37,119 bases of DNA from Prevotella sp. (GTDB lineage: Bacteria; Bacteroidota; Bacteroidia; Bacteroidales; Bacteroidaceae). The DNA is taken from NCBI GenBank assembly GCA_017548275.1, contig JAFZAH010000020.1, positions 1-37,119 on the forward strand. Reading direction: 5' to 3'. Under the pieces are notes generated by a model. That model was not told the DNA's origin, ran no database searches, and was given only the letters and a program-made list of their open reading frames with translations. This document shows, in pieces, positions 5,801 to 19,743 of this stretch. Both the position numbers and the translations under genes were made by a program. How positions within the stretch are numbered: position 1 is the stretch's first letter; each line of letters opens with the position of its first letter.

Positions 5801-6684
5801 TGAAAGGGGCGTGCATGATGATTCAACTGCCCCTCGGAAAAGACCACCTCAAACCCGAAGAAATAGTGGATGCCGAAGAGGGCAAAAAGATAAATGGAAA
5901 ACGCCAGGCGTCACGAAACATGAGGGTGCTCATCGTTGATGATGACAAAGAGGTGGCACAATACATCAAAAACGAGTTGAGCGACTGGTATAAGATTGAT
6001 GTCGCTTACAATGGCAAGGAGGCACTCAAACGGCTCCTTACCAACAATGATTATGACTTGGTCATCAGTGATATTCTCATGCCAGAGATGGATGGACTCA
6101 CATTCATCAAACAACTCAAGTCAAACACGCAAATCAGCGATATCCCCGTCATCCTCCTCACTTCAAAGGCTGAGGCTGCCGACAGGCTTGAAGGTCTGAA
6201 AAAAGGCGCTGACGCATACCTCTCAAAACCCTTCAACATGGAAGAACTGCACATCCTCATCGACAATCTCGTGGATAATGTGCGCAGACTCAGAGGAAAA
6301 TTCACCGGGGCGCAGGCGCAAGAGGACAAGGTGGAGAATGTGGAAGTTAAAGGCAATAACGACTCTCTCATGGAGCGGATTATGAAAACCGTCAACCAGC
6401 ACATGCAGGATGCCGACTTCAATGTTGACAAACTGGCCGATGAGGTGGGATTGAGCCGCACACAATTGCACCGCAAGATGAAGGAAATCACGGGCATCTC
6501 CACGGGTGAGTTCATACGTAATATCCGATTGCAACAAGCGGCACGGCTCATCCGTGAAGGAAAAGTAAACATCGCACAAGTGGCATATTCTGTAGGCTTC
6601 AACAACCAGACCTATTTTTCTACAGTTTTCAAACGCTATTATGGCATGACACCCACAGAGTATGCCGAAAAAGCACCCGAATAG
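2821..6684 (+). CDS. Hybrid two-component system sensor/regulator (HTCS)
   Basis: This 1287-residue protein joins a sensor kinase, receiver and DNA-binding domain in one chain, the typical regulator of Bacteroidales polysaccharide loci. A signal sequence (about 1-20) precedes two-component-propeller repeats, a Y_Y_Y domain near 640-745 and a membrane helix near 752-775. The kinase core follows, with phospho-accepting His792 in ATHDIRSPL, the N box SNLLSNAMKYS, and glycine boxes DNGIGF and GTGIGL. The receiver contains VLIVDDD and the acceptor Asp1084 in ISDILMPEMDG. An AraC-type double helix-turn-helix fills the last 100 residues. All key residues are present, so it should be active. By analogy with characterised HTCS proteins, the periplasmic propeller senses an oligosaccharide from the target glycan. 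Position between GH115 and susC/susD suggests it controls them. Confidence 0.95.
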   Translation: MKKLLLIFAFIVAAVPMRAGNGIFYTADKLSSSMIDYITQDSYGYIWVATLYGLNRFDGYHFTHYYTDKNDTTTLLDNDVTRLLVDSNHRLWIGSSKGVCRFDYERNAFVRYPFPEGAARRVEYLMEDSDGNVLITTAGFGLYAVRKGQDIVTHETQFSRRKENDFMGILFEDEQRNIWRGYQTDTITRIKVNQLQPTSVKDFASQHGPVVSFLKTDARGFLAVCTFGIYRYDYASGRLDEAEYDLSALGGEVSIRSALIDREGNIYLGTSGRGVFTIPAGEKRLIQMENKSGKYDITSTNVNHLFEDKDHNLWVSCYKKGLFELSKGKEVFSTWKFADQNYILGSGVSSVAPADDGGVWCTVQKSGIYHFDRYGKITPAPHTPPGANCIYLDKNGRYWVGSENVLYSYNPVTGAAQTRLKLNGWGINCMTDDGEGVLYICDYGKGLCSFDTATGKTTQWSMYQKDAVKGSLCNDWVKALLLDSRGMLWIATVNGLCVMNPADGNFKSFGWEVQLPGVQCFSLCEYNGEVLIGTDSGLYQYQRNQNKVALFPGSQAIENKPVYTIVCSKSGDFWISSANGIWQYEHTGKRFISHVSGNGLESREFALGAMVHADDDRVFYGSNEGIAAFYPDEVNGKIDYLNTEVYLTSFTIDGEPANCHKREFVIPFRQNSFTMDFSLLNFRNADNVHYEYRLNGGEWTPFPDDGNTLSFNKLKPGKYNIVVRATSNGVYTDSTCSLTVIVRAPWYASTWAYILYGLLILSALAAAFYFRERKQRNDLDEQKMRFLINATHDIRSPLTLIMGPLNKLKNSKLESKDKENVEIIDRNAQRLLLLVNQILDERKIDKKQMHLHCDETDLVAFISGVCSLYHYNAKQRNITFIFEHEQEHLMAWIDRIQFDKVISNLLSNAMKYSFDGGEVKVVLDSDGKTANIKVIDNGIGFKEENTDKLFERFYQGKNTRDLHIEGTGIGLNLSRAIVMMHGGKIKAANRNDGVKGACMMIQLPLGKDHLKPEEIVDAEEGKKINGKRQASRNMRVLIVDDDKEVAQYIKNELSDWYKIDVAYNGKEALKRLLTNNDYDLVISDILMPEMDGLTFIKQLKSNTQISDIPVILLTSKAEAADRLEGLKKGADAYLSKPFNMEELHILIDNLVDNVRRLRGKFTGAQAQEDKVENVEVKGNNDSLMERIMKTVNQHMQDADFNVDKLADEVGLSRTQLHRKMKEITGISTGEFIRNIRLQQAARLIREGKVNIAQVAYSVGFNNQTYFSTVFKRYYGMTPTEYAEKAPE

Positions 6685-6947: not shown

Positions 6948-9900
6948 ATGCATGTGAACTTTAGAAAAACAATCTGTTGCGTAGGACTGTGCTCCGTTTT
7001 CGGAATCATCGGTGCTACGCAGGCTGTGGCTGCCGTGCCCGACAATATGTCGGTCAGCGAGGTACAGCAGACAAAAACAGTGACAGGTTACGTGGGCGAC
7101 TCCGAAGGAGCACTTGTGGGTGTCACCGTGCTCGAAAAGGGTACTTCCAACGGTACGGTGACTGACCTCGACGGTAACTTCTCGCTCAATGTGAGTCAGG
7201 GCGCCTCGCTCGTATTCTCATACGTGGGATATGTCACACAAGAAGTGAAGGTGGGCGATCAGTCCAACCTCCGCATCATCCTTGAAGAGGAAGGAAAGAG
7301 CCTCAACGAGGTCATCGTCATCGGTTACGGTACTCAGCGCCGTGAGGCTGTTACTGGTTCGGTGGCAAACATCGGCGGTGAGAAACTCAACCAGGTGGCT
7401 GCTTCCAACGCTGCACAGGCCCTCCAGGGACGTATCGCCGGTGTGCTCATGACACAGACTTCTACACAGCCCGGTGCTGAGATGCAAATCCGCATCCGTG
7501 GTCAGCGCTCGCTCAGCGCCAGCAACGACCCGCTCATCGTGCTCGACGGAATACCTTTCATGGGTGTTCTCTCCGACATCAACCCCGCCGACATCAAATC
7601 AATTGATATTTTGAAAGACGCTTCTGCTACAGCCATTTACGGTAGCCGTGGTGCCAACGGTGTCATCATCATTACTACCAGCAAGGGTTACCAGGGCGCT
7701 CCCGCCAAGGTGTCTTACAATGGCTACGTCAGTTTCAAGACTGTATTCAAAGAGTATCCCATGATGGACGGACCTACCTATGCAAAGTTCCGTCAGTATG
7801 CAGGTAAATACCAGAATTCTCTCTATGAGGACGACAATGTCGATACCGACTGGCAGGACCTCTATTACCAGACGGGCGTCAGCCACAACCATGACATCTC
7901 CGTTTCAGGTGGTACCAATGGCGGCAGTTACAGTTTCGGCGCTGGTTACTATCATGATGGTTCGGTAGTGCCCACACAGGGTTATGACCGCATCTCCCTC
8001 CGTGGTAATTTCGACCAGTTTGTGGGCAAATACTTCCACTTCGGTCTCTCCACCAACAACAGTTATCGCAAGACTCAGGGCGTTAATAATATATATGGTG
8101 TGCTCAGCATGCCTCCTATCGTGAGCCCCTACGATGAGGAAGGAAATCTCAGATCATGGGTTTCACTGCCTGCTGACGACCAGGTGGTCATCACTAAGGA
8201 AAAGGTGGAAGGTTGGAAAGATGTTTGGAAGAATGATAACAAGGGTATCGGTTCATACAACACCATCTTCGGTGAGGTGAAATGCCCGTGGGTTGAAGGA
8301 CTCAGTTATCGAATCAACGTCGGTCTCAACTACCGTTCCAACAAGCATGGCGGATTTACCGGTACAGGTGTCAACAGCAAAGACGCTACTACCGTTAACA
8401 GCGGCGACCAGAATGAGAACAGCACCTACAACTGGGCTGTGGAGAACCTCATCACGTTCGACCGCACGTTCAATGATGTGCACAACCTCAATATCGTAGG
8501 TATGTACTCTGCCGAGGAGACCACTTACGAATCGACTGGCGCAAACTCAAAGGGCATCTTCAACGACGCTTTCTTGTACTATGCTCTTGACCAGGCTTCT
8601 GGCGAGGTCAACCTCAGCAATTACAACTACTGGAAGAGCGGACTCGTCTCATGGATGGGGCGTGTGATGTATTCTTATGACAACAAGTACATGATTTCTG
8701 CAGCGCTCCGTTCCGATGGTTCGTCACGTCTGGCAAAGGGACATAAATGGCACACTTATCCCGCAGTCAGTGTGGGTTGGAACATCCACCGTGAGGAGTT
8801 CATGAAAGGCCTCGGTTGGCTCAATAACCTCAAACTCCGTATCGGTTACGGTGAAACTTCTAACCAGAGTATCAGTCCCTATTCCACACTGGGTACGCTG
8901 TCAACACGTAACTACAACTTCGGTTCTACTTATAATCCCGGTTTCTTCGTTACCGCACTGCCTAATGAAGAACTCGGATGGGAGTACAGCAAGACATGGA
9001 ACTTCGGTCTCGACTTTTCACTCTTCAACGGCCGCCTATATGGTAGTTTCGAATACTACATCCAGAAGACACACGACATCCTGCTTGACGTCTCTCTGCC
9101 TTCAACATCGGGTGTGAGCAGTTTCACGGGTAATATCGGTAAAACTCAGAACAAAGGTTTCGAGTTCACGCTCAACGGAACCATCATCGACAATAAGAAC
9201 GGATGGACTTGGGATGCAGGAATCAACCTCTATCAAAACCGCAACAAACTGGTCGCTCTGGCCTCTGGTCAGGAAGAGGATGAGGCTAACCGCTGGTTCG
9301 TAGGCTATCCCATCGATGTCATCTACGACTATAAGAAAATCGGTCTCTGGCAAGAGGGTGACCCCTATCTCGATATTCTCGAGCCAGGTGGAAACGTAGG
9401 TATGATTAAAGTGGAATATACTGGCGACTACAATGCTGACGGAACTCCGACACGTGCTATCGGTGCAGATGACAGACAAATCATCAGCATGGAGCCCGAC
9501 CTCATCGGCGGTTTTAACACCACAGTGTCATACAAGCACTTCGATCTCTCCATCATCGGTGCATTCCAGTTTGGTGGTAAACTGATTTCAGCCATCCATT
9601 CATCTAATGGCTATCTGAATATGCTCACAGGTCGTCGCGGACAACTCGACGTCGATTACTGGACAGAAGAGAATACGGGTGCCAAGTATCCGAAACCGGG
9701 CGGCGCACAGAGCGGCGACAACCCCAAATACGGTTCTACGCTCGGTTACTTCGACGCAAGTTACCTGAAGTTCCGCACCATCACGCTGGGTTACAACTTC
9801 GAACACCTTAAGGCTGTCAGAGACCTCGGCATCAGCCGCCTACGCGTCTATGCTACTGTGCAGAATCCCTTCGTGCTCTTCTCACCGTTCACCAACGAGA

Positions 9901-13783: not shown

Positions 13784-14983
13784 TTATACATTAGGCATGG
13801 CCAACTGTTCGTTTCTTATCTCAATCATCAATTGGTTCACGAATTGAGTGTCAATCTTTTCGGGGATGGTTGATTGCTCCATGAGCAGGTTCATCCGTTC
13901 TTTCTCCTCTTCCAACAGACTGATAATCTCGTCATACTCAAATTTGTGATTGCGCACATCCATCAGGAATTGCCTGTCTTGATGTCGTTGCAACATCATG
14001 CCCTTACCTTGTGCTATCTCACCGGCCATATGCATCAGACGTAAACAGTGCATCATGTTTTTCGAGTCATAGGTCTTGTCAAGATTTGACTCGTAACGCT
14101 TCGGATTCCGCTCTTTCACCCATGTCTGATATTCGGCATAAACACGGCAATGTGAAGAATAACCGTCATGGTTGTATGAGATGAAACATATCGGACGGGT
14201 ATCCTTGTCATCAATTGACGACAGTCTCAATTCGTTGCTGTCGGTCTCTTCGTTAATCACCCCGCGATAGCCGATGGGCGATATGCTGGTGAGTCGGCTC
14301 TTCACCGCATCAATGCCGCTGTCATGATAATACTCGCACGCAAAGGTAAGAAACACCATGTCTTCTTTCCAGTCGGCATGGTTTGCGATATGTGCCCCGA
14401 AGTCATAATAAACACCGTAAATGTCGTGCATATTCGGGATGTTTACCAGTCCGCAATACGCTTGATGGAGATGGCGGTTGGAGAGCCAGTCGCGGAACTT
14501 CGTGCTGCCTTGACCCTTAAAAGTGTAAATGAAGTCAAAGGGTGTAAGACGCTCTTTGACAGGGTTGACGATTTTCTTGTTCAACCCGCGCGCTTTCTCT
14601 ATCTGCGATTTGGCATAACCGAAGAACGGGTTGAAACACTCTTTGGTGAGAAACCGCTCCCGGTGGTCGATAACCATCTGCATCAGCGGATGCACTTTTC
14701 CTATAATCTTGTCTTTCGGCACAAACAGACTCTCCAACGCTGTCGGGTTCGATTTCAGCAGCAACCGCATCAGTTCGCCTATCTCATACCAGGTGTTGTC
14801 GTGTCGCGCATCCGACACCTGCGCCTGATAACCGAAACATCCCAACAACTCGTCTCTAGTGCAGACATATACGCCACTCGTGTCTATGTCCGACTCTTCT
14901 GTGTTCAGTCCATATAGGTGGCTGCCGCGAATATACTCATACAGCAGCCGCCCTTCATTCCTTATGATGTCAAATGTCGCCAT
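13784..14983 (-). CDS. RlaP-type nucleotidyltransferase (DNA polymerase beta fold)
   Basis: This 399-residue protein belongs to the predicted nucleotidyltransferases of COG3541 (Pfam 'RlaP'), a polymerase-beta-fold family proposed to act in RNA repair. The active-site signature is near the start: RGSHLYGLNTEESDID, with the GS of the nucleotide-binding loop followed by the DxD metal-binding pair. The rest contains family-like features such as GYAKSQIEKARGLNKKIVNP and MHCLRLMHMAGEIAQGKGM. It is the last of three genes packed with only a few bases between them (kinase, Thg1-like polymerase, then this), so translation is probably coupled. Length is typical. The exact reaction (adding nucleotides to RNA ends, or modifying another target) is not known for the family as far as I recall. 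Confidence 0.88.
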   Translation of the reverse strand: MATFDIIRNEGRLLYEYIRGSHLYGLNTEESDIDTSGVYVCTRDELLGCFGYQAQVSDARHDNTWYEIGELMRLLLKSNPTALESLFVPKDKIIGKVHPLMQMVIDHRERFLTKECFNPFFGYAKSQIEKARGLNKKIVNPVKERLTPFDFIYTFKGQGSTKFRDWLSNRHLHQAYCGLVNIPNMHDIYGVYYDFGAHIANHADWKEDMVFLTFACEYYHDSGIDAVKSRLTSISPIGYRGVINEETDSNELRLSSIDDKDTRPICFISYNHDGYSSHCRVYAEYQTWVKERNPKRYESNLDKTYDSKNMMHCLRLMHMAGEIAQGKGMMLQRHQDRQFLMDVRNHKFEYDEIISLLEEEKERMNLLMEQSTIPEKIDTQFVNQLMIEIRNEQLAMPNV

Positions 14984-14985
14984 AT

Positions 14986-15759
14986 TCAGTCCTCTTTATT
15001 CGATTGTTCTATAATAGTGTTAATCAACCGTGAATAATCCTTGCCAATGGGCAACTCCATCTCCAACTGCAAAGCCCGCCTGATATATGTGGTCGTTTCA
15101 TTGGTCATCGGGTTGAAACCCTGTCGTTGCACATTATGGTAATACATACCGACGCCTCGTTTTTGCCAAAGCGGCAGATCGTTATAATTGATGCCTCTCT
15201 CAAACAGAATCTCATTTTTCTCACTGGTTGATATACCCGACAACCGTTTTTGTGCAGCATTGGCAGAGACTCCTTCTTTACGAAGTGCCCAATAGCAATG
15301 CGAGTTCAGGGAGTTGCGGTGAGCATCCTCCTGTCGCCATCTGAAGTAGTCTGCCACGTTTTCCGCCGTGGGCAGGGGAATAAGTCGGTTGTCAAACACG
15401 GCTGCTCTGCCTGTATGCATGGAGAATGCGACAGATGCCTCGGAAGCAAGGATTGAAATCAATTTCCTTTCCTTCCTGCCAAATGTACTGTCTTTCAAAT
15501 GGAATAACAGCGAAATTTCGTCGCTTTGGGTATATCCGTATATCATTCGGAATCCACAATCCATCAGATGTTTGGTAGTATCTATCATGGCATCGCGGAA
15601 TCTGATATCAAAAGGCTTTTCCAAATCCCATTCCTTCTTGGTAAGCCGTGTAAAACCGTGACCGTCCAACCGTGCCACGACATAAATACCTTCGAGCATC
15701 GTCCTGTCAAGTGACTGCTCAAATTTCCTCATTTGTTTATCAAGGGTATCAAAGTCCAT
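14986..15759 (-). CDS. Thg1-like protein (3'-5' RNA polymerase / tRNA-His guanylyltransferase family)
   Basis: This 257-residue protein is a bacterial member of the Thg1 family, enzymes that add nucleotides to the 5' end of tRNA in the reverse, 3'-to-5' direction. The metal-binding residues are visible: Asp32 in ARLDGHGFTRLTKK and Asp80-Glu81 in YGYTQSDEISLLF. The family's DAHRNSLNSHCYW stretch is also intact, as is a later ERGINYNDLPLWQKRGVG. True Thg1 adds G-1 to eukaryotic tRNA-His; in most bacteria that base is genome-encoded, and bacterial Thg1-like proteins instead repair 5'-truncated tRNAs using the 3' strand as template. It sits between the kinase and RlaP-type genes with gaps of 3 and 2 bases. 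A tRNA-like sequence with a mismatched acceptor lies just upstream of the operon, a possible substrate (inference). Confidence 0.93.
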   Translation of the reverse strand: MDFDTLDKQMRKFEQSLDRTMLEGIYVVARLDGHGFTRLTKKEWDLEKPFDIRFRDAMIDTTKHLMDCGFRMIYGYTQSDEISLLFHLKDSTFGRKERKLISILASEASVAFSMHTGRAAVFDNRLIPLPTAENVADYFRWRQEDAHRNSLNSHCYWALRKEGVSANAAQKRLSGISTSEKNEILFERGINYNDLPLWQKRGVGMYYHNVQRQGFNPMTNETTTYIRRALQLEMELPIGKDYSRLINTIIEQSNKED

Positions 15760-15762
15760 TGT

Positions 15763-16230
15763 CTATTCCCTCCATGTTGATATTTCAAAATCGTTATTGT
15801 CTATTCTCACAAAATACAGTTCATCAAATCCTTCTGCCTTCGATGGCATCTCCAGTTTATTGCTCGTGCAAGCGATAGCCTTAGAGGGCACTTTGTCGCC
15901 TCGTGACTCATTCCTCAGAACACAGTCTTTCACGATGCTTTGAAAGAACAAACCGATGACTTGATAACCGTACTCCTTGGCTTTTTGTATATATATCATA
16001 CGGTCTGCAATCTCTGGATTGGTGTTGTCGATGACGAACGATTTACCCTCGTCAAGACATTTCATCAATTCCAAATTCTCTTTGTTGCGGGTATGAAGAA
16101 TATCAAGACTGATATGGGTATAGTTCCCGTCAGACAGCATTTGACGATAGAATGTTGTCTTTCCGCTTGCCTGAATCCCCATAAAGATGATGGCTTGCCG
16201 GTTTCGTTTCTCAAAAGGCAGGTGTTTCAT
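15763..16230 (-). CDS. P-loop nucleotide/polynucleotide kinase-like protein
   Basis: This 155-residue protein is a small P-loop kinase of the polynucleotide-kinase-like (AAA_33) type. The Walker A loop GIQASGKTT has its lysine at residue 24. Asp43 in SLDIL and the DNTNP motif (68-72), usual for 5'-OH polynucleotide kinases and related zeta-toxin-like folds, follow. The lid region is CVLRNESRGDKVP. No phosphatase or ligase domain is attached. As the first gene of the three-gene operon it would fit as the enzyme that re-phosphorylates a cleaved RNA 5' end before the Thg1-like polymerase extends it; a 5' mono- or triphosphate is required or made during Thg1-type activation. That order of action is inference. 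The start is unambiguous, about 40 bases after a -7 box on this strand. Confidence 0.85.
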   Translation of the reverse strand: MKHLPFEKRNRQAIIFMGIQASGKTTFYRQMLSDGNYTHISLDILHTRNKENLELMKCLDEGKSFVIDNTNPEIADRMIYIQKAKEYGYQVIGLFFQSIVKDCVLRNESRGDKVPSKAIACTSNKLEMPSKAEGFDELYFVRIDNNDFEISTWRE

Positions 16231-16271
16231 TCTAAATTGTTGCAGATAACTTTCTTATTTCTATTCTGTTG

Positions 16272-16279
16272 CAAAATTA
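16272..16279 (-). promoter_or_regulatory. -7 promoter box for the RNA-repair operon
   Basis: Read on the minus strand the sequence is TAATTTTG followed by CAAC, a good -7 match. No TTTG is found 19-21 bases upstream, so the -33 element is missing or weak. The predicted leader is about 35 bases. Confidence 0.5.
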
Positions 16280-16372
16280 ATCATCTTTGCGCAGCCTTTT
16301 TGCGTAGAGCCGTTTTTTGTCTTTTTTTTGAAAGATTTTTTAAAAACGCAAAAACATTTCGTAGTACCATTC

Positions 16373-16380
16373 TACTTTTG
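16373..16380 (+). promoter_or_regulatory. -7 promoter box for the tRNA-like sequence
   Basis: TACTTTTG fits TAnnTTTG and lies about 50 bases before the tRNA-like body. No convincing -33 element is visible. It points away from the RNA-repair operon, so the two units are divergent. Confidence 0.45.
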
Positions 16381-16428
16381 CAACGGAAAAACATAATAAC
16401 GTTCTTTGAATGCAGTGAGTGCCGTAGG

Positions 16429-16503
16429 AGAGGAATACTTCGTAAGTGGTAAGAACGTCGGATTGTAATTCCGAAGGTCGCGGGTTCGAGTCCCGCCTCC
16501 AAA
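16429..16503 (+). ncRNA. tRNA-like RNA, anticodon GTA, tRNA-His-like arms, mispaired acceptor
   Basis: The anticodon arm is perfect: TCGGA (16458-16462), loop TTGTAAT, TCCGA (16470-16474), giving anticodon GTA. A 5-base variable region leads to a perfect T arm, GCGGG-TTCGAGT-CCCGC (16480-16496). A D arm is present with GTGGT in the loop (stem TTC/GAA, or alternatively CGT/ACG), preceded by T-A as at positions 8-9. The acceptor does not pair properly: with U8-A9 at 16436-16437, positions 4-6 pair (G-C, G-C, A-T) but 1-3 and 7 do not. Alternatively GGAG (16427-16430) could pair with CTCC (16497-16500). No CCA in the normal place. A GTA anticodon means tyrosine, but bacterial tRNA-Tyr has a long variable arm and this has a short one; the anticodon and T arms look like tRNA-His with one changed base. 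It may be a pseudogene or a substrate of the nearby Thg1-like protein. Confidence 0.6.
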
Positions 16504-16743
16504 TCGCTGGTGTAGTTCAGAACCCTCTCCGCCCGTCGCCTCATTATTTAAGGGAGCGATATATTACTTTTCCCGGATAATCATTTGATATAAATGCAGT
16601 CAGAAATGGCTGCTTTATTTTTTTCCCCTAAATAATGTCAGAAACTACATTATGAAAATTCGTGTTTTTGTCAATGCCTTTTGACTCAAGGCGATTATTA
16701 TCGACATATCCAATAAGTCCAACTGTCGCCATTCTTTTTTTGT

Positions 16744-18063
16744 TTACGAAGTTGAGTCATTATCAAAATCCCTATAGTCAATCTTTTCGATACGGACCAC
16801 ATAATCATGCCATACCTCTTCCATCCGTTCGGCTTGGCTGTCACTCAACATCTCGCCCGAATGCCCCTCTTTCCAGTTAAAATCAGGGATGGCCTCGCTC
16901 AACGCTTCCGTCGTCAGCAGTAACGGCGACTCCTCGGGGTGAATCATGTGACTCAGGGTCATCCGGATATAATACACTTTTCTGCTCCTTCCGCTCCAGT
17001 CCTCATCGGGATAGGGCGTTCCGGTAAACGTCCCGCGCATCACCACGCCTTGTTTCTCTCCGCCCGTGCGAATCATATAAAACTTGTCGCCGATATGCAC
17101 ATGCTGGTGGTCCCAAATGCTCCACTCATAATAGTACCCTTCATGAGGGAAGACCTTGATGGCATCACCAAACTCTGCCAATGTGTAATTGCTGATGTCG
17201 GTGTTCCAACGCATGATAAATGTCTTACGGAAATGCTCCCTGACTATTCCTTGGGCAGCGTCAAACAACTCACTCCATCTATCCCTTGTCATCTTCCTGA
17301 GAAAGGCTTGGCATGAGTCCATCTGCCTGAACTCCTCTTGGTCGCTCATCAAAGCGAAGAAATCATCTGCCGTTATCATCTTACAGGTGTTGCCCTTCAT
17401 CATACCGACATATTGGCTGGCACCGATGAATACATCGCGTGTGTTGTCCACAACCCTGAGAGTGCTGAGTTCCTCGTTGTCGGTGATATGCCGCTTTTCT
17501 TCTGTCACGTTCTCAAAATCCGGGTTGGTCCATTGCAAGGCGATGAAGTCTTGGAAAGCGATATCTGCGAGGTCCTCGACACGCCCCATTCCGGCATAGC
17601 GTTTCGGAGAAAGATAGAAATCTCTTCTCACACCCGTTATCACTGTCAGTTCCTCCTTGCCGAGCATCTCTGCCATATTCTGCCGCCGCTGTTGCCATTG
17701 CAAACGGGAGTCATCGTCATTCAGACGGGCGTGTCGCTCATCCTCGTCAAAAATCCTTGCGCTGCGGTGTGCCTTGCCTGTGGCATAGAGAAAGGCATAG
17801 CATAACTCGACATCTTTCTCGGATGCCAACCATGGGATTTCCACAACGATACTGCCGCCAATCATCTGTTTCACGTGAACGCCTTGTGTTGACATGCCTT
17901 CGACCATCAACGTGTATGACTCTCTTTCGCTGTTCACAGGCTCACGATACACTTTCATGACACTTTGTGTGGTCGCATCGCCGCAAAACAGTGTTATGAC
18001 TCTATTCAATACTTTCTGATGATTGAAATAACGGACGCCTTTGATTGTAAATTTATATGCCAT
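16744..18063 (-). CDS. Uncharacterised protein with possible C-terminal EVE/PUA-like domain
   Basis: This 439-residue protein has no signal peptide and should be cytoplasmic. I do not recognise the N-terminal two thirds. It includes a strongly charged stretch (DEDERHARLNDDDSRLQWQQ) and several tryptophans. The last 120 residues, beginning near VHIGDKFYMIRTGG, resemble small PUA/EVE-type RNA- or modified-base-binding domains: a GD-F-hydrophobic opening, then GVVMRGTFTGTPYPDEDW, a YYIRMTL strand and a closing FNWKEGHSGEMLSDSQAERM. This resemblance is by eye only. The frame extends upstream to 18138, but the ATG at 18063 (or 18069) begins the conserved-looking YKFTIKGVRYF. It is flanked by the tRNA-like sequence and, across a repeat-filled gap, by a WYL regulator, all on the minus strand. 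Confidence 0.8.
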   Translation of the reverse strand: MAYKFTIKGVRYFNHQKVLNRVITLFCGDATTQSVMKVYREPVNSERESYTLMVEGMSTQGVHVKQMIGGSIVVEIPWLASEKDVELCYAFLYATGKAHRSARIFDEDERHARLNDDDSRLQWQQRRQNMAEMLGKEELTVITGVRRDFYLSPKRYAGMGRVEDLADIAFQDFIALQWTNPDFENVTEEKRHITDNEELSTLRVVDNTRDVFIGASQYVGMMKGNTCKMITADDFFALMSDQEEFRQMDSCQAFLRKMTRDRWSELFDAAQGIVREHFRKTFIMRWNTDISNYTLAEFGDAIKVFPHEGYYYEWSIWDHQHVHIGDKFYMIRTGGEKQGVVMRGTFTGTPYPDEDWSGRSRKVYYIRMTLSHMIHPEESPLLLTTEALSEAIPDFNWKEGHSGEMLSDSQAERMEEVWHDYVVRIEKIDYRDFDNDSTS

Positions 18064-18285
18064 AATCATTCGATTTTTGCTGTTTTGTGTTGGTTGAGAA
18101 CGGTCTGTGTTGAAGTCTGTGTTTTTAGGAGGGACCATGTAAGGCCGCCTGTCGTCCCCGCGACCTTACAGGTTCTCTCCATGAAGCAATCGTGATACAA
18201 GTTAATTTCTGTTTCTTTCTTATAGGATTACCTGTACACCCGCATTCGAGATCAGGTGACAGTATGTTTTTCTCTTATGATGCTG

Positions 18286-18780: not shown

Positions 18781-19743
18781 TTATTGTCCGTTTGGCAGAT
18801 TGTCTTCTTCCTCCGTTTCATACATCTGCGCCGCTTCTTTGTGCATGACAGAAATCTCGTCGGCCAACCATTTGGGCGACAGCACTTTGAGTTGGCTGCC
18901 GCGGCTCAGTATGTGACCGCTGAAATCGACTGTAGGACGCAGAAACAGTTCAAAATCTGCGAAGTCCTCACCATGACCTATCTCGTGTTGGCTCTCATGT
19001 ATGGGCAAATCCCTCAGATAATACCGCTCATATCCATATGCGCGCAAGACAATGTGTTCGGGAGCCGTGCCGTTGTCAGCCAAAACGCCATAAAACTCTG
19101 CAAAATATTTTTGCGCATCGAAATCCGGGTCTATCCGGAATTTGACTTTGGTGAGCGACATGCTCATAATCCTGTCAAAAGAGAAAAGACCGAAGTAGTC
19201 CGACTCGGGCTTTTCCTCCGTCGCGTCGCGATGGAAATGCCCCAACACATACCAGCGCTGCTTAAACAGTTTCAGACAATAAGGCTCAAAGTCCAGACGG
19301 TTAGGACGGTCGGTGCCGTATTTCCTGTACTCCACCTCTATTCTCACATTTTTCTTCATCGCGTCTATCACCATCTTCAGATAGTTGCCCTCTGCTGGCA
19401 CGGGTTGGAGTAGGATGCGGTCTTGAAGCGACAAACTCTCGCTGATGATGTTGCTCACCGAGAGTGTTGACAACATCCAGTTTTGGACACTGTCATTGTG
19501 CAGCACATCATCGTTGCCGATAAAGTATTGATAACCGTTTTTCCTGTCGCAGTCGATGTAGATGCCGAACATCTCCTCTATGGCTATCCTATGGCGGGAA
19601 AAAGTGGAACGCGTCAGTTCCACACCCTCGCTCATGTCGGTGTCGAGCCACTTCTCCTGTATCTCGGCAAACGTGATTCTACGTGCCTTGCGAATGGTGT
19701 TTACAAGCCAGATGTATTCCTTGAATTTCGCTGGTATTTTCAT
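18781..19743 (-). CDS. WYL-domain transcriptional regulator
   Basis: This 320-residue cytoplasmic protein has the WYL regulator layout. An N-terminal winged helix-turn-helix (about 1-70) contains RRITFAEIQEKWLD and STFSRHRIAIEEMFG. The WYL domain (about 130-230) has the ligand-binding line FEPYCLKLFKQRWYVLGHF, and a C-terminal WCX extension follows (HIVLRAYGYERYYLRDLPIH). WYL domains bind nucleic acids or nucleotides and regulate stress, DNA-damage and defence genes in many bacteria. It has its own -7 box. The next gene on its strand is the EVE-like protein, 717 bases further, with the tandem repeats in between; these could include its operators (inference). Confidence 0.9.
   Translation of the reverse strand: MKIPAKFKEYIWLVNTIRKARRITFAEIQEKWLDTDMSEGVELTRSTFSRHRIAIEEMFGIYIDCDRKNGYQYFIGNDDVLHNDSVQNWMLSTLSVSNIISESLSLQDRILLQPVPAEGNYLKMVIDAMKKNVRIEVEYRKYGTDRPNRLDFEPYCLKLFKQRWYVLGHFHRDATEEKPESDYFGLFSFDRIMSMSLTKVKFRIDPDFDAQKYFAEFYGVLADNGTAPEHIVLRAYGYERYYLRDLPIHESQHEIGHGEDFADFELFLRPTVDFSGHILSRGSQLKVLSPKWLADEISVMHKEAAQMYETEEEDNLPNGQ

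Follow-up and report, generated by a model that had tools for sequence, protein, structure and literature searches.

The bacterial Y RNA YrlA (Rfam RF02553) combines an outer stem with a capped tRNA-like domain that lacks a free acceptor end, is found with rsr and rtcB, is reported to resemble the D, T and acceptor arms of a tRNA and, according to the same source, tethers Rsr to PNPase (PMC8394870). As described for Salmonella, Rsr, Y RNAs and RtcB are brought together in an RtcR-regulated rsr-yrlBA-rtcBA operon in a context of RNA damage (PMC7790460), and Ro60 ribonucleoproteins (RNPs) of Bacteroides thetaiotaomicron are reported to immunoprecipitate with bacterial Y RNAs (PMC11277228). A TROVE protein with a tRNA-like partner has been presented as an RNA-repair platform, with RlaP and Thg1 predicted to restore lost nucleotides (PMC7824862); the bacterial Thg1-like proteins (TLPs) studied are described as favouring 5'-truncated tRNAs (PMC6471195), and what purpose the tRNA-like ends serve in bacterial Y RNAs and which substrates TLPs have in cells are both presented as unsettled (PMC7790460, PMC6471195). 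Permuted tRNA genes of algae and archaea, in which the 3' half precedes the 5' half and whose type I has its junction in the D loop, are reported to be processed to tRNAs (PMC3978253). We analysed a 37,119-nt stretch of Prevotella sp. DNA (GenBank assembly GCA_017548275.1, contig JAFZAH010000020.1; the whole stretch is referred to as the window), in which a 130-nt RNA unit is divergent from an operon encoding a kinase, a TLP and an RlaP-family nucleotidyltransferase (Table 1), and we consider this unit very probably to be a bacterial Y RNA with a permuted fold.

Like YrlA, the window unit appears to carry a capped tRNA-like domain on an outer stem, with no free acceptor end; whereas the YrlA stem enters at the position of the anticodon stem (Rfam consensus), as it does in sister units of the window unit, here the stem joins the domain at the D loop and leaves the anticodon arm in place. 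As in permuted tRNA genes, the 3' half comes before the 5' half, but the unit has no free CCA end and its junction bears a conserved stem. The gene set recalls that of Salmonella in bringing together Rsr, Y RNAs and RtcB and differs from it by the added kinase, TLP and RlaP, and by a palindrome and a nearby WYL gene where Salmonella has RtcR (no search was made for RtcR or RtcA). The likeness to the B. thetaiotaomicron RNPs is one of description.

Part of the unit is matched by the tRNA model RF00005 (33.8 bits at 16445-16498, gathering score 29), which covers model positions 6 to 65 of 71; ARAGORN did not call this stretch in the window. The original prediction had placed here, at 16429-16503, a tRNA-like element with intact arms and a broken acceptor. 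The element itself stood, while its boundaries and the mispaired acceptor did not: comparison with homologues defines a conserved unit at 16415-16544 (130 nt), in which the acceptor strands pair in a permuted fold. From its 5' end, the unit runs through P1, UGCCGUAG, P2, AAUACUUCG, the second half of the D loop, the D-stem 3' strand and the anticodon arm, and continues through the T arm, the acceptor 3' strand, a loop, the acceptor 5' strand, U-A, the D-stem 5' strand, P2, GCCCGUCGC and P1. Five of the seven bases earlier taken for the acceptor 5' strand (16429-16433) belong to P2. The acceptor closes as a hairpin over a loop of ~4 bases (UUCG in L006, L011 and L013; L, G and C numbers are our handles for loci, genomes and contigs), leaving neither the 5' nor the 3' end free, and the seven-pair acceptor with free 3' end of an elongator tRNA is absent. 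The supposed resemblance of the anticodon arm to tRNA-His was likewise lost on inspection, the anticodon position in the 7-base loop reading GUA and not the GUG of His, with a loop sequence that varies among homologues. Judged by comparison with the homologues, the tRNA-like domain is a tRNA fold opened in the D loop, closed at the acceptor and set on a two-helix stem.

The permuted fold was evaluated on an alignment (A4) of six sequences: the window, L006, L011, L013, L016 and L091, the last of which came from a covariance-model search. With this fold, 98.5% of 202 cells in A4 were paired and 8 of 34 pairs showed two-sided changes; none of 500 shuffles reached the observed values on any of five measures, and the fold slid along the alignment retained 0-2 pairs with two-sided changes. 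The P1, P2, anticodon, T and acceptor helices each had at least one such change. When the divergent seventh sequence L139 was added (A6), 97.0% of cells were paired and two-sided changes rose to 14 of 34 pairs, compared with 2-5 in slid versions, with the anticodon arm of L139 lying one column off and counted partly as unpaired; the unit of L140 was excluded from this count and parsed by hand, because MAFFT had misaligned its D arm (A5). Double changes in the acceptor comprised A-U to G-C in L091 and C-G to U-A in L139. RNAalifold, with no structure supplied, drew P1, P2, the anticodon arm, the T arm and the acceptor hairpin. The terminal helix with a conserved internal-loop core that characterizes Y RNAs is thus present, as evidenced by the two-sided changes in P1 and P2 and by the recurrence of the cores in other units.

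The view that this RNA keeps company with RNA-repair genes was confirmed, and a search for similar sequence beside homologous operons, as the original prediction had proposed, was positive at four other TLP loci. Among the 80 loci kept from 105 TLP relatives, the unit adjoins the operon in L006, L011, L013 and L016; the window unit matched L006 and L013 (both E = 1.56e-15) and L011 (E = 5.9e-12) over 108-130 nt by blastn-short, and the L016 copy, with a weak match (50 nt, E = 0.33), was recognised through the core pattern and alignment. In all four loci the unit is part of an array of five to seven core copies between the repair operon and the TROVE gene, and the array abuts rsr; one core copy in the L013 array is without its own 3' half. 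In several array neighbours the stem joins the tRNA mimic at the anticodon stem, and the sister units have either no anticodon arm or no evident tRNA-like part at all. Sister units scored 26-42 bits against YrlA (gathering score 69): in L013 the E-values were 1.2e-6, 2.6e-6 and 0.0032, and two units of G895, a genome of another family in the same order, matched YrlA over its full length (E = 4.9e-6 and 7.6e-6), all below gathering. We read the element as a bacterial Y RNA because its stem motif is found again in arrays next to rsr and because the sister units match YrlA, albeit below threshold.

The genome to which the window belongs encodes Rsr on contig C40 (PF05731, 94.2 bits; vWA_Ro60, 32 bits; 24.7 bits against the NCBIfam Rsr model, whose cut-off is 900), where the gene order is WYL (minus strand), rtcB, Y unit, Y unit, rsr, Y unit. 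The core pattern TGCCGTAGN{5,14}RCTTC had five matches in this genome, one in the window, one on C7 and three on C40, where they flank the TROVE gene. Across the order, surveyed in two draws of 393 genomes with the same settings that we took as one draw, TROVE was found in 6 of 393 genomes (E <= 1e-6) and matches to R1, a covariance model built from the window unit and four of the five other A4 homologues, in two (E <= 1e-8), both TROVE-positive; G000, G341 (the record of L006), G493, G895, G923 and G781 are TROVE-positive across the surveys. Of the order's six TROVE genomes, five had the core motif in the DNA retrieved around rsr; none was found around rsr in G647, whose TROVE protein is 32% identical to that of the window's genome. 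Within the family, 297 of 301 genomes had some R1 match at E <= 0.01, but only G000, G341 and G493 exceeded 47 bits; weaker matches were discounted as ordinary tRNA genes standing singly or in tandem (L094, which was inspected, is an ordinary tRNA), and R1 matches of 16-32 bits in L021, L024, L029 and L030 fall within tRNA clusters. Because no more than these three family genomes exceeded 47 bits, the element is not a scattered tRNA pseudogene, a possibility that the earlier note had proposed to check by just such a covariance search. The genome-wide R1 counts are lower bounds, since the L139 and L140 units surfaced only when those loci were searched alone.

With respect to TLP, the gene was present in G000 and G341, a 55% identical TLP was present in G895, and none was found in G493 (69% complete), G923 or G781. 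These last three genomes nonetheless have D-loop-type units (in L123, L139 and L140; the type of the L139 and L140 units comes from a hand parse), whereas in the TLP-bearing genomes G072 and G109 (the latter 78% complete) no TROVE was detected and no core motif lay in the 12 kb around TLP. Because D-loop forms occur in three Rsr genomes without a detected TLP, and TLP occurs in two genomes without a detected TROVE, the RNA appears to track Rsr rather than TLP.

A palindromic operator-like site upstream of the unit (Table 1) may connect it with the repair genes. Counts were made in 22 loci (271,017 bp) that have a Bacteroidales-type TLP with kinase, or rsr or Y units; L142 was not one of them. 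At no more than one mismatch, 21 sites were found in 16 of these loci and none for the reversed pattern; among 60 anagram palindromes, the true one included, the mean was 1.1 sites and the next highest count 5. At two mismatches there were 39 sites versus 6. Among the 13 TLP loci of Bacteroidales type that have a kinase match, 10 carry the operator and 5 carry Y cores; at related loci the sites precede Y RNAs and repair operons as well as rtcB and rsr. Before Y RNAs, an arrangement of operator (up to three mismatches allowed), 10-11 bp, TA(N)1-2TTTG, 16-23 bp and TTCWTTGA occurs eight times, once in the window and seven times in six other loci; anagrams reach this arrangement at most 4 times (mean 0.4). 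We take TACTTTTG to fit the Bacteroidetes -7 element TAnnTTTG and TTCTTTGA to be boxA-like. On C40 a perfect operator lies between WYL and rtcB, and two further perfect sites lie on C25 and C34. The C40 WYL protein is 76-87% identical to the WYL protein encoded after TLP in L011, L013, L014, L019, L020 and L041, 59% identical to that after RlaP in L016, and 50-52% identical to the rsr-adjacent ones of L139 and L140. Because the palindrome recurs at these genes and a WYL regulator is often near, the Y RNAs, repair operon, rtcB and rsr are likely to form one regulon, and the gene neighbourhood suggests that the WYL regulator next to rtcB probably binds the palindrome.

Several observations count against a Y RNA linked to Rsr and to this regulon. 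The rsr gene is not on the contig of the window, and the genome holds no excess of the core pattern (5 matches versus 11 for a reversed control); therefore, it is the clustering at rsr and not the number of matches that carries weight. Close D-loop-type sequences number six, of which one is the window, four were reached via TLP and one via the model. The window unit itself scored 22.1 bits against YrlA, far from the gathering score; sub-threshold YrlA matches are weak evidence, since an ordinary tRNA pair on C44 of the same genome scores 32.2 bits, more than the unit, and below-cut-off matches occurred in 13 of 14 control genomes. Within the fold, two of the six acceptor pairs are mismatched in the window copy, and the D stem showed no two-sided change in A4 and was left undrawn by RNAalifold; in A6, which includes L139, all of its cells were paired and one of its four pairs changed on both sides (A-U to G-C). 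Single-sequence fold energies were mildly unusual (z = -2.2, -1.2, -0.5 and -0.6), and the case for the fold therefore rests on comparison. As for the operator, it was not enriched in the genome (88 sites versus 124 for the control at up to two mismatches) or in the window (16 versus 17 expected at up to three), the loci are related, and in some of them it had been spotted by eye before it was counted there.

With these points weighed, a Y RNA with a D-loop-opened tRNA domain, linked to Rsr and under shared regulation, is the best overall explanation and one that we hold to be quite likely. The outer stem would bind the Ro60 orthologue Rsr, a ring-shaped protein of RNA quality control, and the tRNA-like end may serve as a tether or gate by which tRNA-binding repair enzymes (kinase, TLP, RlaP, RtcB), or else damaged tRNAs, are docked on that ring; we regard such a docking role in these gut and rumen bacteria as possible but somewhat less than even. 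Y RNAs would in this way hold together Rsr, damaged tRNAs and repair enzymes, with the D-loop type presenting its anticodon, T and acceptor arms, and the other type a D arm in place of the anticodon arm. More speculatively, and on balance doubtfully, Bacteroidales may use modular tRNA-mimicking Y RNAs in which one stem is plugged in at either the anticodon stem or the D loop, as adaptors that each expose another side of the tRNA and that, with Rsr, form a WYL-induced RNP workshop bringing damaged tRNAs to the kinase, the TLP (a 3'-5' polymerase), RlaP and RtcB. Y RNAs, their tRNA mimicry and the linkage of Rsr with RtcB are already known. The D-loop-opened form with an anticodon arm, the Bacteroidales arrays and the tie of the palindrome to kinase, TLP and RlaP are provisionally new: no D-loop-opened Y RNA, Bacteroidales array or palindrome link was named in the titles and abstract openings listed by the searches, outside which most subscription papers fell. 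A second mode of inserting the tRNA fold, in which the anticodon arm is kept, would show modular tRNA mimicry in Y RNAs, and because a probable Y RNA and a TLP here share a gene set and a recurring regulatory site, both of the questions described as unsettled become testable.

The alternative that survives best is a decoy, in which the tRNA-like domain with its anticodon arm would competitively inhibit an anticodon nuclease under stress, a role proposed for Salmonella YrlA, which the nuclease is reported not to cut (PMC7790460). That YrlA is left uncut accords with such a role, as does the seven-base anticodon loop that the D-loop type (the window and five close relatives), unlike YrlA-type units, has kept. 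The loop sequence varies among the relatives, however, and L139 has a GAAA-capped hairpin instead (hand parse); a variable or replaced loop is therefore a poor fit to a decoy for a specific nuclease, and we consider this role unlikely. Much less probable is the interpretation advanced originally, that the TLP edits the 5' end of a dedicated tRNA-like substrate whose acceptor is mismatched at pairs 1-3. It draws on the divergent position of the unit (184 bp from the operon, close to the ~200 bp first given) and on the recurrence of the unit beside the operon in L006, L011, L013 and L016. The mismatches, however, arose from the boundaries then chosen and vanish once the unit extends to 16544, where the acceptor is a closed hairpin. 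The canonical acceptor register paired in 42.9% of cells, with zero two-sided changes in six homologues, and a Thg1-edited mispaired tRNA is thus rejected by covariation; D-loop forms in three Rsr genomes without a detected TLP also speak against it.

A circularly permuted tRNA gene, ligated and processed to a working tRNA, is slightly more improbable still. Its topology would be like that of type I genes, with a D-loop junction, in C. merolae (PMC3978253), but the acceptor loop of ~4 nt without CCA, an anticodon that differs between close relatives, an outer stem with the Y core, and sister units without an anticodon arm or evident tRNA-like part are all at odds with it. A tRNA pseudogene or a remnant of a tRNA-integrated element, which the partial RF00005 match might suggest, can be dismissed with near certainty, being contradicted by the compensatory changes across the unit, its conservation beside the operon and the scarcity of R1 matches above 47 bits in the 301 family genomes. 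Two further candidates were rejected: a self-cleaving ribozyme surrounding the tRNA domain had sub-threshold matches only (Twister-sister, 21.7 bits versus gathering 34, in L013), and tmRNA scored 18.5 bits versus gathering 47 (E = 6.6e-6 in a small search), a partial match carried by the T-arm end.

Table 1. Positions in the window of the candidate Y RNA unit and its parts, the upstream elements and the repair operon.
Feature	Position	Strand	Remarks
Whole Y-RNA-like unit with predicted D-loop-opened (circularly permuted) tRNA-like domain	16415-16544	+	A4 alignment; R1 139 bits
P1 outer helix, 5' strand GUGAG	16415-16419	+	Pairs with 16540-16544; two-sided changes in 2/5 pairs
Conserved core UGCCGUAG	16420-16427	+	U bulge followed by GC, which pairs with 16538-16539; also found in arrays next to rsr
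P2 helix, 5' strand	16427-16433	+	Pairs with 16524-16530; two-sided changes in 2/7 pairs
Conserved inner core AAUACUUCG	16434-16442	+	Recurs in other array units
Opened D loop, 3' part with GG	16443-16456	+	Includes D-stem 3' strand GAAC 16453-16456, partner 16515-16518
Anticodon-arm equivalent	16458-16474	+	Loop 16463-16469 UUGUAAU; two-sided changes in 2/5 pairs
T arm, UUCGAGU loop	16480-16496	+	RF00005 match; two-sided change in 1/5 pairs
Capped acceptor hairpin	16497-16512	+	3' strand 16497-16502, loop, 5' strand 16507-16512
U8-A9 equivalent and D-stem 5' strand GUUC	16513-16518	+	Alignments A4, A6
P2 3' strand, conserved GCCCGUCGC, P1 3' strand	16524-16544	+	A4 alignment
Conserved TTCTTTGA upstream of RNA	16402-16409	+	
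TACTTTTG	16373-16380	+	-7-like element
Palindromic operator-like site ACGCAA-N5-TTGCGT	16346-16362	.	1 mismatch
Second operator-like site	16289-16305	.	2 mismatches; operon side of intergenic region; such sites common in the genome
P-loop kinase, polynucleotide-kinase-like	15763-16230	-	PF13671 AAA_33, 47 bits
Thg1-like protein (TLP)	14986-15759	-	PF04446 110.2 bits; PF14413 69.5 bits
RlaP-family nucleotidyltransferase	13784-14983	-	PF10127, 72.6 bits

The three tightly packed genes for RNA-end enzymes that had been recognised initially were borne out by profile matches and by gaps of 3 bases (kinase/TLP) and 2 bases (TLP/RlaP), all three genes lying on the minus strand. Against the NCBIfam PNK-3'Pase model the kinase gave E = 1.4e-12 but 46.8 bits, below the cut-off of 502.8; the closest solved chain to the TLP is the Thg1-like protein 5axk (E = 6.7e-34). 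TLP is rare in the genus, being found in 3 of 299 genomes. Near the Y RNA, the window also encodes a 464-aa protein that matches nothing in Pfam, PADLOC or NCBIfam (16744-18138, minus strand) and a second WYL protein (18781-19743, minus strand) with 28% identity over 187 aa to the C40 WYL protein. PADLOC returned nothing for the kinase, TLP, RlaP, the 464-aa protein or Rsr and matched the two WYL proteins alone.

RNAs of this shape are annotated as odd tRNAs by annotation programs; ARAGORN labelled the L011 and L013 units as tRNA-Leu and the L016 unit as tRNA-Arg. Each of the four arrays contains, or has at its margin, a tRNA with a CAT anticodon (e.g., L013 1438-1511, minus strand), which we take to be initiator-like, although its anticodon stem is without the three G-C pairs presumably usual for such tRNAs. 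Anticodon-entered Y units at L121 976-1128 (the same as L124 7052-7204) and L139 3474-3618 have their acceptor strands joined by inserts of ~25 and ~17 nt, respectively, in place of the short loop, a shape near that of true permuted tRNA genes. The Y units at L124 8981-9109 and L140 9992-10123 have an inner stretch, GAGGAATAGTGAG...CGAGACTATCCGGTTCG, common to two families, and L124 also encodes, between two near-identical Y units, a 250-aa protein without a Pfam match (7872-8624, plus strand). The core pattern in loosened form also gave chance-like matches (window 33172, L012 2643, L139 10871, L141 865 and L143 3371). TLP genes of Butyrivibrio and Oribacterium (L021, L022 and L024) come after tRNA genes, and at 6595-6667 (plus strand) of these three loci, downstream of TLP, ARAGORN called a tRNA whose 'anticodon' is two bases long (ca or aa).

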